Part shown: positions 10,913 to 61,146 of the stretch, piece by piece
Position numbering within the stretch: the first letter of the stretch is position 1
How the letters are laid out: every line of letters begins with the position of its first letter
Assembly (NCBI GenBank): GCA_903825395.1
Contig: CAIKAF010000019.1
Span: 62,001 to 126,000 of the forward strand
DNA length: 64,000 nucleotides
Direction: 5' to 3'
Source of the DNA: an uncultured Flavobacteriales bacterium
GTDB taxonomy: Bacteria > Bacteroidota > Bacteroidia > CAIKAF01
Notes under the pieces: generated by a model
Databases searched by the model: none
Told to the model about the DNA's origin: nothing
Seen by the model: the letters and a program-made list of their open reading frames with translations, nothing else
Translations under genes and position numbers: made by a program

Positions 10913-10997
10913 ATCTATGCTTACAGAAGTATACATCGACTCTGAACAGTCGAAAAATAAAAAGGTGGGCAAGGCAGGAATTAAGTCAAAACGGCCA

Positions 10998-11128
10998 ATT
11001 TTTACCACAGAGGCCGCAAAGTCAACCGCAATGTTCGCAAAGGCGCCTCCAAACTCCTGCACCCCCTTGTTATTACTACATTACCTCTGTGAACGTTGCG
11101 CCGACTTGGAGCCCTTTGCGGTAAAAAA
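10998..11128. repeat. Long imperfect inverted repeat (ACCACAGAGG / CTTTGCGGT type)
   Basis: The left arm reads TTTTTACCACAGAGG then CCGCAAAG. The right arm reads CTTTGCGGTAAAAA, complementary to the outer part with a short insertion, and CCTCTGTGAACGTTGCG lies inside. Low-complexity hairpins of this flavour occur as dispersed intergenic repeats in many bacteria. An 89-codon frame through it (10917-11186) has the composition of the repeat rather than of a protein. Confidence 0.65.
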
Positions 11129-11186
11129 ACCTCAAGACATACCTGTCCATTTTTTACCGCATCCGAGTACCAAGAAATCAAAATAA

Positions 11187-12944: not shown

Positions 12945-14735
12945 TTAATCGTTCAGTTTTAGAACAGCTAAAAATGCCTGTTGAGGAATCTCAACACTGC
13001 CCACTTGCCTCATGCGCTTTTTACCCTCTTTTTGTTTTTCAAGCAGTTTTCGCTTCCGGCTTATATCGCCCCCATAGCATTTGGCTGTAACATCTTTCCG
13101 CAGCGCTTTTACCGTTTCACGTGCGATGACCTTAGCCCCAATTGCAGCTTGAATGGCAATTTCAAATTGCTGCCTAGGCAACAATTCCTTAAGTTTTAAA
13201 CACAGTTTTTTACCTAAGTCAAACGCATTATCCCGGTGAATTAAACTGGACAAGGCATCTACTTGCTCACCATTTAATAATATGTCCATTTTCACCAACA
13301 CAGAAGTCCTGTAATCACTCGGATGGTAATCAAAGCTGGCATACCCCTTAGAAATGGTTTTAAGCCGATCGTAAAAGTCAAATACAATTTCCCCCAACGG
13401 CAACTCAAAACTCAGTTCTACCCGATCTTGTGTCAGATAAACCTGGTTCTTCAATATCCCACGTTTCTCCATACACAAAGTCATTACCGGACCTGTGAAT
13501 TCTGATTTGGTAATGATTTGAGCCTTGATATACGGCTCCTCAACATATTCTAAGTGGTTGGGCTCTGGTAAATCTGAAGGATTATTGACAATGAGTTTCT
13601 CTCCCTTCTTGGTGTAGGCTTTATACGAAACGTTGGGTACGGTGGTAATGACATTCATGTCAAATTCCCGCTCCAACCGCTCTTGAATGATTTCCATATG
13701 CAGCATCCCCAAAAACCCACACCTGAAACCAAATCCCAAGGCGGCGGACGACTCCGGCTCAAAGGTCAAACTACTGTCGTTCAGCTGCAATTTTGCCATA
13801 GCCTCACGTAGCTCTTCGTAGTCCTCCGTATCTACCGGATAGATGCCCGCAAATACCATGGGTTTTACATTTTCAAACCCATGAATCATATCGGAACAGG
13901 GCCGCGCAACATGCGTAATGGTATCTCCCACTTTTACTTCCTTTGCGGTTTTTATTCCCGATACAATATACCCTACATCGCCGGCTAAAACACTGTTTCT
14001 GGGCGACAAATCCAATTTTAAGACTCCAATTTCATCTGCTTCGTATTCTTTCTCGGTAGCCATGAATTTAACCTTGTCTCCCTTTCTTAAACTTCCGTTC
14101 ATAACACGGAAGTATGCAATAATACCTCGGAATGGATTGAATACAGAATCGAAAATCAGCGCCTGTAAGGGCGCCTCTGGATCACCTTTGGGTGCTGGAA
14201 TACGCGCAATTACCGCTTCTAAAATTTTATCAACACCTTGACCTGTTTTCCCCGATGCAGGAATAATATCGTCCAGCGAACAACCAATTAAATCCACAAT
14301 TTGATCTTTCACTTCCTCTGGCATGGCCGAGGGCAAATCCATTTTATTTAAAATGGGAATGATTTCTAAATCATGCTCAATGGCTAAGTACAAATTAGAA
14401 ATGGTCTGAGCCTGAATTCCTTGCGTAGCATCTACAATCAAAAGGGCCCCCTCGCATGCAGCAATACTTCTACTAACTTCATACGAGAAATCGACATGCC
14501 CAGGTGTATCAATTAAATTTAAAATATACGACTCCCCCCCCAAAGAATATTCCATTTGTATGGCTTTACTTTTAATTGTAATGCCACGCTCCCGCTCCAA
14601 ATCCATATCGTCTAAGGTCTGCGCCTTCAAATCCTTGCCACTAATGGTGTTGGTAGTTTGGAGCAGCCTGTCGGCCAACGTTGATTTCCCATGGTCAATA
14701 TGGGCAATTATGCAAAAATTTCGAATGTGCTTCAT
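12945..14735 (-). CDS. lepA: Elongation factor 4 (LepA)
   Basis: 596-residue ribosome-associated translational GTPase, the usual length. GTPase motifs are AHIDHGKST (residues 11-19), DTPGH and NKMD. The conserved [12 protein letters not shown] segment and the lysine-rich C-terminus ([19 protein letters not shown]) unique to LepA are present. It acts on stalled or mis-translocated ribosomes and affects biogenesis of the small subunit. It has its own promoter and no close operon partner. Confidence 0.97.
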
Positions 14736-14823: not shown

Positions 14824-14967
14824 GGGGAGGGTACCGGGCTTTCACCGCTGGTCCGCGGTCCAATGGCTTTGCCCCAGCGGGGTTACGGTGGCTCCCAAGG
14901 TCGCCTCCGCCCCTCGCGGGGCAGAAGCCATTGTTCCTTGCGGGCCAGCTGGTTCAATCCCGCCCGC
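14824..14967 (+). repeat. Structured intergenic element, copy B
   Basis: 144 bp, preceded by GTTTTTTG. The terminal stem is GGGAGGG with CCCGCCC (one mismatch). P2 is GCTGG/CCAGC, a full set of compensatory changes relative to GGTAG/CTACC in copies D and E. The variable stem starts GGTCCAATGGC and ends GCCATTGTTCC. It is the only copy that lies between divergent genes (lepA and elbB) rather than just 3' of a gene on its own strand. The rest of the 14968-15157 gap holds no recognisable feature. Confidence 0.9.
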
Positions 14968-15157: not shown

Positions 15158-15832
15158 ATGAAAGCACATGTAATTTTATCGGGCTGCGGAGTGTACGACG
15201 GCAGCGAAATTCAAGAATCGGTATTGGCTTTACTGGCCTTACAACAGTTTGGTTTTGAGTACTTATGCTGGGCTCCCAACATGCCCCAGCACCATGTCAT
15301 TAATCATCTGACCGGTGAAGAAATGCCCGAAGTCCGTAATGCCCTGACGGAAGCCGCTCGAATCGCCCGGGGACAGGTGATGGATTTGGCAGAATTTTCA
15401 GCTGAAAACTGCGATTTGCTGCTGCTGCCAGGCGGCTTTGGTGCCGCTAAAAATCTCTCCGATTGGGCTTTTTTAGGAGCCCAAGGAACAATTCACCCTC
15501 AGGTGGCCAAAGCCATTCAACAGGTACATGCCCAAGGAAAACCCATTGTTGCATTGTGCATGGCTCCTGTGCTACTGGCCCACGCCTTAGGAAATCTCCA
15601 TCCCAATATTAGCCTTGGCCAAAGTGGGAATGATTCCCCATACGACATTGCCTCAATCCATGAAGGCGCTGAGTGCTTGGGCGCTAAAACAGCTGAAATT
15701 CCAGCCGGTGAAATTTGGGTCGATGCCAATCTTAAACTAATTTGTGGCCCTTGCTACATGATGAATACAAACATTTCAGAAGTGTACACAACCATCATGA
15801 AGTCGGTTGAACAGGCGAAATCTTGGGTGTAA
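15158..15832 (+). CDS. elbB: Isoprenoid biosynthesis glyoxalase ElbB
   Basis: 224-residue cytoplasmic protein of the DJ-1/PfpI class I glutamine-amidotransferase-like superfamily. Diagnostic segments are SGCGVYDGSEIQE at the N-terminus, LLLPGGFGAAKNLSD, and the nucleophile elbow ALCMAP with C134. E. coli ElbB has glyoxalase III activity and was linked to early isoprenoid synthesis; its physiological role is uncertain. It is monocistronic in appearance, with recR starting 90 bp later from its own promoter. Confidence 0.92.
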   Translation: MKAHVILSGCGVYDGSEIQESVLALLALQQFGFEYLCWAPNMPQHHVINHLTGEEMPEVRNALTEAARIARGQVMDLAEFSAENCDLLLLPGGFGAAKNLSDWAFLGAQGTIHPQVAKAIQQVHAQGKPIVALCMAPVLLAHALGNLHPNISLGQSGNDSPYDIASIHEGAECLGAKTAEIPAGEIWVDANLKLICGPCYMMNTNISEVYTTIMKSVEQAKSWV

Positions 15833-34405: not shown

Positions 34406-34548
34406 GCGGGCGGGATTGAACAAGGTTGCCCGCAAAGCCGAAAGGGTATGGGCCCGCGAGCGGCGCAGGCGACTTTAGGAGCCCGCGTAACGCCGCTGGG
34501 ACCAACCCTTTTGGCTGCGGACTACCTGTGAAAGCCCGGTACCCGCCC
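34406..34548 (-). repeat. Structured intergenic element, copy C
   Basis: 143 bp on the minus strand, 10 bp beyond the stop of the sugar-transferase gene. The terminal stem is GGGCGGG/CCCGCCC. P2 is GGTAG/CAACC with one mismatch. The variable stem starts AGCCAAAAGGG and ends CCCTTTCGGCT. The inner hairpin differs from the other copies by a paired change (CGCGGGC with GCCTGCG), and AGCGGCG/CGCCGCT extends it by 7 bp. Confidence 0.9.
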
Positions 34549-55883: not shown

Positions 55884-56026
55884 GCGGCAGGGATTGAGCC
55901 GGGTAGCCCGTACCGTTTCAGTGGCTGTGCTGCGCGCGGCGCGGAGGCGACCTTGGGAGCCCACGCAAGCCCGCTGCAGCACGCCACTGAACGGGCGGAC
56001 TACCGGTGAAAGCCCGTTTGCCGCCC
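55884..56026 (-). repeat. Structured intergenic element, copy D
   Basis: 143 bp on the minus strand, 23 bp beyond the pyrB stop. The terminal stem is GCGGCA with TGCCGC, a paired change relative to GCGGG/CCCGC in copies C and E. P2 is a 10-bp helix, GGTAGTCCGC with GCGGGCTACC wobble-paired at one position. The variable stem starts CCGTTCAGTGGC and ends GCCACTGAAACGG, with two bulged A residues on the 3' arm. GTTCAATCC of the other copies reads GCTCAATCC here. Confidence 0.9.
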
Positions 56027-61002: not shown

Positions 61003-61146
61003 GGGCGGGTAACGGGCTTTCACCGGTAGGCCGCAGTTGGCAGGCAGGGTGGCAGCGGGCTGCGGTGGCTCCCAAGGTCGCCTCCTCGCCGCGCGCCACC
61101 AGCTGCTGCCAACTTGGCGGGCTACCGTGTTCAATCCCGCCCGCAA
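61003..61146 (+). repeat. Structured intergenic element, copy E
   Basis: 144 bp, preceded by TTTTTTTT. The terminal stem is GGGCGGG/CCCGCCC. P2 is GGTAG/CTACC. The variable stem starts AGTTGGCAG and ends CTGCCAACT. It lies beyond the terminator of the upstream gene, so it is not simply a 3' UTR. The bases after its end (GCAAT, CCTCATGACC) match those after copy A, suggesting that the element is about 15 bp longer. Confidence 0.9.

Follow-up and report, generated by a model that had tools for sequence, protein, structure and literature searches.

What is the 143-nt palindrome that lies between two divergent genes in an uncultured Bacteroidota genome, and is it kept folded as an RNA or as an extruded strand of DNA? 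The window analysed here is a stretch of 64,000 nucleotides (positions 62001-126000 of contig C19) of G000, a Bacteroidota genome assembled as 33 contigs with 2.63 Mb in total, whose closest named relatives by LepA are Cryomorphaceae and Crocinitomicaceae metagenome-assembled genomes with 80-81% protein identity. The window contains five copies of the element, A-E, which were scored with a covariance model (R1) built from 13 copies (alignment A1). Copy B (14825-14967, + strand, 143.6 bits) is flanked by genes at 12945-14735 (-), which we take from its sequence to be lepA, and at 15158-15832 (+), by its sequence presumably ElbB-like. The remaining copies are A (964-1104, +, 134.2 bits), C (34406-34548, -, 135.3 bits), D (55884-56026, -, 133.1 bits) and E (61003-61144, +, 134.1 bits), the last with a terminator-like hairpin and T-run immediately upstream.

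The element is dispersed throughout the genome in high copy number. R1 gave a full-length match in all 150 candidates scored in G000 (E 5.8e-27 to 4.5e-16); these were part of 740 first-look candidates, so the genome holds at least 150 matches. Five stretches were searched completely (contigs C5, C20, C23 and C29, and the window) and yielded 80 copies in 777 kb, or 1.03 per 10 kb, from which a total of ~270 copies in the genome is extrapolated. When as many as 2 mismatches were allowed, TTCAATCCCNSCCGC, the end motif, had 281 sites, as against 16 for a reversed control. The length of the element is 141-144 nt, as measured on 111 distinct sequences among 112 matched copies.

Each copy is one long interrupted hairpin. 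From its base upwards it consists of P1, the CGGGCTTTC/TCAATCCC internal loop, P2, P3, an inner helix that has one A bulged out, P4 and the apex. In copy B (all on the + strand), P1 pairs 14827-14831 with 14963-14967, with one A-G mismatch. The conserved CGGGCTTTC motif (14835-14843; conserved to at least 97% among the 111 copies) pairs through its GGG with the CCC at 14959-14961, within the conserved TCAATCCC motif (14954-14961; at least 97% conserved), which matches the Flavo-1 consensus on its other strand. P2 joins 14844-14850 to 14946-14953, and P3, a long stem of variable sequence, joins 14853-14874 to approximately 14919-14943. The inner helix with its bulged A (14875-14882 with 14911-14918; 97% paired in 111 copies) lies below P4 (14885-14892 with 14903-14910), which carries the apical loop TCCCAAGGTC (14893-14902). 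The hairpin does not extend outwards: pairing between matched flanks (10.18) does not exceed that between shuffled flanks (10.31).

Covariation was analysed on a structure-blind MAFFT alignment of the 111 distinct copies with a FastTree tree. As the null, parsimony substitutions were reshuffled over columns along the tree in 60 simulations (a procedure of our own, modelled on R-scape), and 9 alignment columns occupied in fewer than half of the copies were excluded. Fifteen column pairs scored above the largest null value, all 15 of them on the hairpin diagonal: one in P1 (7-138), four in P2 (20-128, 21-127, 22-126, 24-123), nine in P3 (33-112, 36-109, 38-107, 39-106, 40-105, 41-104, 42-103, 49-96, 50-95) and one in the inner helix (58-87), the strongest support thus falling on the long P3 stem. 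The P4 pairs (61-68/79-86) are 94% Watson-Crick in the 111 copies and show no significant covariation, because P4 is nearly invariant. Single copies at four loci (L008, L164, L167, L171) carry replaced P4 sequences with pairing retained. Folding of copies B and E as single-stranded DNA gave z-scores of -5.4 to -6.8 for both strands.

The original prediction had drawn its helices from compensatory changes among the window copies. The strings it quoted are present: GCGGG/CCCGC (C, E) and GCGGC/GCCGC (A, D) in P1; GGTAG/CTACC (D, E), GCTGG/CCAGC (B) and GATAG/CTATT (A) in P2; and the P4 forms given for copies C and D. The same copies also contain exceptions: a P1 pair is broken in copy B itself (GGGAGGG, A against G), P2 of copy C has an A-A mismatch (GGTAG/CAACC), and the outer P2 pair of copy A is G-T. 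Genome-wide covariation, which had been proposed as one check for P1, P2 and P4, is significant in the first two, whereas P4 is well paired but below significance. The four helices had been regarded as independent; all are stacked parts of one hairpin. The 15 covarying pairs strongly support the conserved folded single-stranded form that had been proposed.

The 10-nt apical loop had been described as nearly invariant and as a possible recognition site, and on this point the analysis gave a different picture. Two forms are about equally common among the 111 copies, TCCCAAGGTC in 54 and TCCTAAAGTC, the form of copy C, in 51, with other forms in 6. Columns 72 and 75 (window 14896 and 14899) change together, reading CG in 56 copies, TA in 51 and TC in 4, so that the apex switches between C-AA-G and T-AA-A and is coupled in 107 of the 111. 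Since the two forms differ at two coupled positions, the apex is itself a small paired unit, and what had been called the loop is an apex that has two states and a coupled pair; it is at most a candidate recognition site. Overall, what had been seen in the sequence holds for covariation and fails for the loop, and the interpretation placed on it is supported in part. Written as the complement, the apex is exactly C-CTTG-G or C-TTTA-G, both of which are classic two-residue DNA loops. A TTTA loop in DNA is described in PMC8037738.

The known family nearest to the element is Flavo-1 (RF01705), catalogued in 2010 as a candidate RNA and entered in Rfam as 'Flavo-1 RNA; sRNA', a class without known function; the literature found gives none. 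At the gathering score (42 bits), RF01705 has 0 matches in the window and 0 hits in G000. At three loci from relatives, R1 and Flavo-1 both match over the full length, sharing their ends but lying on opposite strands: L048 1149-1287 (R1 41.1 bits, Flavo-1 27.8 bits), L246 from G059 (33.2 and 47.1 bits) and L252 from G027, where R1 is weak (17.1 bits, E 0.16) and Flavo-1 scores 34.7 bits. Among 19 loci chosen for Flavo-1, R1 (E up to 1) matched in 3, and at the place of the Flavo-1 match in 2 (L246, L252). Once brought to the same strand, members of Flavo-1 have GGGCTATCCGCT...CCGCTTCTATCCC and CCCGCTTTCCGCT...CCGCTTCAATCGGGG. The outer scaffold and conserved motifs of Flavo-1 are common to L246, L252 and L048, and extend to the G000 copies by motif comparison only.

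The two models differ in their distribution. RF01705 was found in 24 of 60 related genomes (13 above the cut-off), with up to 34 matches per genome and 27-34 in each of G024, G036, G051 and G056. R1 matched 8 of 40 genomes, namely G000, five congeners (80 of 80 scored in G001, G003 and G005; 41 in G002; 35 in G004) and, weakly, G009 (1 match) and G014 (6); it had no match in the 30 loci searched out of 80 from other named genomes. Because R1 matches are mainly restricted to congeners and some relatives are matched by both models, the element, judged by sequence comparison, is a genus-level, enlarged, high-copy subtype of the Flavo-1 scaffold. It shares with Flavo-1 the outer stem, the CTTTC / TTCAATC internal-loop motifs, a P2-like helix, a variable inner part and the presence of many copies per genome in several Bacteroidota, but differs in its fixed 143-nt form, its elaborate apical domain and its ~270 copies, and the G000 copies fall below Flavo-1 significance.

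Individual copies are maintained in place between species. The gene order of the window is kept in G001 and G005, with aligned blocks of ~67-83% DNA identity, and copies occupy orthologous places across species of ~71-77% DNA identity. Window copies were found at orthologous sites in 5 of 5 cases in G005, 4 of 5 in G001 and 3 of 3 testable cases in G003: A, B, C and E are in place in both G001 and G005 (C with a nearly identical P3 stem), B and E also in G003, and D is present in G003 and, in the form of a different subtype, in G005, but absent from G001. In 13 pairs of copies from G000 and G003, the elements are 98.5% identical (1821/1848), compared to 96.0% for the 250-nt 5' flanks (3120/3249; p 1.7e-7, for the 5' flank only) and 86.3% for the alignable 3' flanks (2356/2730), several of which are shortened. 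This persistence in place, together with change slower than that of the flanks, points to selection acting copy by copy, and the constant blocks could owe something to short gene conversion.

Copies are also gained and lost. In the stretch L255, 4 of 4 testable copies are present in G003, and three copies (3531, 4136 and 7410) have, by spacing, no room in G001 and G005, where the first two are missing together with ~2.7 kb. G001 and G005 share further copies at 2 places that are empty in G000, and G005 has one extra. No target duplications could be demonstrated at the empty sites, which are too diverged. Several draft contigs of G003 (L259, L260, L262) start or end in or beside a copy, indicating that assemblies of the genus break at the element.

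Such gains and losses, like the high copy number and the genus-restricted expansion, would suit a non-autonomous mobile element, MITE- or REP-like, which a putative enzyme would spread in the form of a folded single strand, an explanation that we consider unlikely, although it survives better than the other rivals. It would also fit the T-rich sequence at one end and the two genes for REP-type Y1 transposases, one of which lies 158 nt from a copy; G000 has three Y1_Tnp genes, these two (68.0 and 56.1 bits with NCBIfam, below the 80-bit cut-off) and one IS200-like. However, both REP-type genes adjoin other, short palindromes. The gene at L163 11002-11860 has its own AGAGACGCAC palindromes, most around it and one of them inside the gene, and adjoins the truncated 3' end of a 143-nt element; the other has a CTACCCTGCATAGGGTAG palindrome behind it. 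The 143-nt element is therefore unlikely to be their cognate. Further points against mobility are the persistence and slow change of single copies, the diversity of the copies (mean identity 0.754, with 11 of 6105 pairs at 0.95 or above) and the lack of a Pfam match to Y1_Tnp in G001 and G005, although Pfam detects the REP-type genes weakly (E ~1e-4 to 1e-3). No reverse transcriptase domain (PF00078, RVT_1) was found in G000, G001, G003 or G005; given its absence from these four element-rich genomes, retrotransposition as a SINE-like retroelement was rejected.

The element resembles REP/REPIN sequences with their RAYTs in being a dispersed intergenic palindrome with close pairs inverted. It differs in length (143 nt versus 20-40 nt) and in lacking a GTAG or CGTC end tag, and a cognate relation to RAYTs was rejected on these grounds and on the other palindromes of the RAYT genes. 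Around Bacteroidetes genes of subclass 2.6, PMC6006769 mentions 'atypical secondary structures'. The window also carries a second, unrelated interspersed repeat, ACCACAGAGGCCGCAAAG...CCCTTTGCGGTAAAA, at 10940-11180, which gave 36 blast rows among the loci compared, many with 70-85% identity in G000 and G003.

RNA or extruded DNA had been left open by the original prediction, and the evidence leans to DNA, because copies show no link to gene orientation, G-T pairs are rare and Flavo-1 hits are indifferent to strand. If the element were a structured RNA, each copy would be transcribed from its own promoter or by read-through, as a small RNA or an element of a transcript. The covariation is of the kind seen in RNA, Rfam annotates Flavo-1 as such, and many copies have a T-rich stretch just upstream (a T-run of at least 4 in 70 of 111); we nevertheless regard this explanation as improbable, and as somewhat less likely than mobility. 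No rule relates the element's orientation to gene direction. Both neighbours were called for 79 of 86 rows from G000 and relatives (orthologues included), of which 24 are divergent, 21 convergent, 20 sense and 14 antisense. For 74 copies on four contigs, annotated with a home-made gene caller, 7 overlap a called ORF, 2 are at edges and 65 could be assigned to a class (16 convergent, 10 divergent, 23 sense, 16 antisense); all gaps of at least 60 nt comprise 42 convergent, 47 divergent and 143 co-directional ones for comparison. The median distance from a copy to the neighbouring gene is 38 nt, which leaves little room for a promoter, and no promoter-like conserved block occurs in the 45 nt before or the 40 nt after the 111 copies, the downstream flank showing a weak RGGCC block. 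In the F. psychrophilum transcriptome, according to PMC9723704, Flavo-1 hits lie indifferently sense or antisense, many of them outside transcribed regions.

The rarity of wobble pairs, whichever strand is considered, also speaks against an RNA. At positions paired in at least 80% of copies there are 33 G-T and 27 A-C to 4200 Watson-Crick combinations (G-T ~0.8%), compared to 8.7% wobble in a tRNA control (acceptor and T stems of 24 tRNAs; 25 G-T and 1 A-C of 288 cells). Alternatively, template switching, or strong selection on an RNA rich in GC, could account for the low wobble. The complement was considered as the folded strand after a first mismatch count of 18 G-T versus 49 A-C origins on the strand as originally read, a count that excluded 22-126 (25 G-T cells, ambiguous register), 35-110 and 44-101 to 48-97 (poorly aligned). 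The counts over the full set of 17 P3 pairs are 59 G-T and 33 A-C. The proposal was abandoned, as per-copy alignment did not support the 18:49 count (54:22 to 11:9 for isolated mismatches, by choice of sites). A tRNA-like element, suggested by the resemblance of GGTTCAATCC to a T arm, was likewise rejected, with no tRNA called in the window.

Tentatively, we prefer a DNA site that forms a hairpin or cruciform to either a REP/RAYT element or an RNA gene, and hypothesize that this site is maintained by the host for a possible chromosome-level role. Each copy would be an intergenic DNA site, one or both strands of which fold as a cruciform or single-stranded hairpin. The constant parts (the CGGGCTTTC/TCAATCCC internal loop and the apical domain) would probably be read by a putative host protein, and P2 and P3 would need pairing only. 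A density of about one copy per 10 kb, occurrence in any gene orientation and upkeep in place would make chromosome organisation or supercoil handling the most likely service, by analogy with known sites. In enterobacteria, BIME / REP-gyrase sites are high-copy intergenic hairpins proposed for supercoiling, and favour transcribed 3' ends. The element is likewise a high-copy intergenic hairpin, but without a gene-orientation rule. That the copies are functionless ancient dispersed palindromes, in which template-switch correction in replication keeps the stems perfect, is very improbable: low wobble would fit, as would the multi-base compensatory changes that template switching can produce (PMC8794818), but conserved mismatches, bulges and unpaired motifs persist, the length is fixed at 141-144 nt and the element changes more slowly than its flanks.

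Extended to the whole family, the DNA-site hypothesis would turn the Flavo-1 'RNAs' into DNA hairpins of a system that organises the chromosome in Bacteroidota: a protein would read the folded DNA, and neighbouring sites would work as pairs of opposite orientation; as a general statement this is a speculation with a low probability. Should the element indeed act as DNA, Rfam has misfiled a class of its annotations in Bacteroidota. The subtype is rigid and easy to recognise, and its ~270 copies, together with its graded relatives, make the folding molecule, its binder and its upkeep directly testable.

Neighbouring copies tend to alternate in orientation, which is a constraint for any model. 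In a merged, incomplete list of 208 copies, 113 of 167 neighbours at least 1 kb apart alternate (mean with shuffled labels 83.7, p 0.0005). Within the completely searched stretches, orientation is opposite in 31 of 35 neighbours less than 8 kb apart, as against 21 of 40 beyond. Of the pairs closer than 1 kb, 10 of 11 are + then -. Selection against deletions between direct repeats is a plain explanation, and accounts for the dependence on distance. Recombination between copies does occur, since in G005 the segment L255 16183-18614 is inverted relative to G000, with its breakpoints at two inverted copies.
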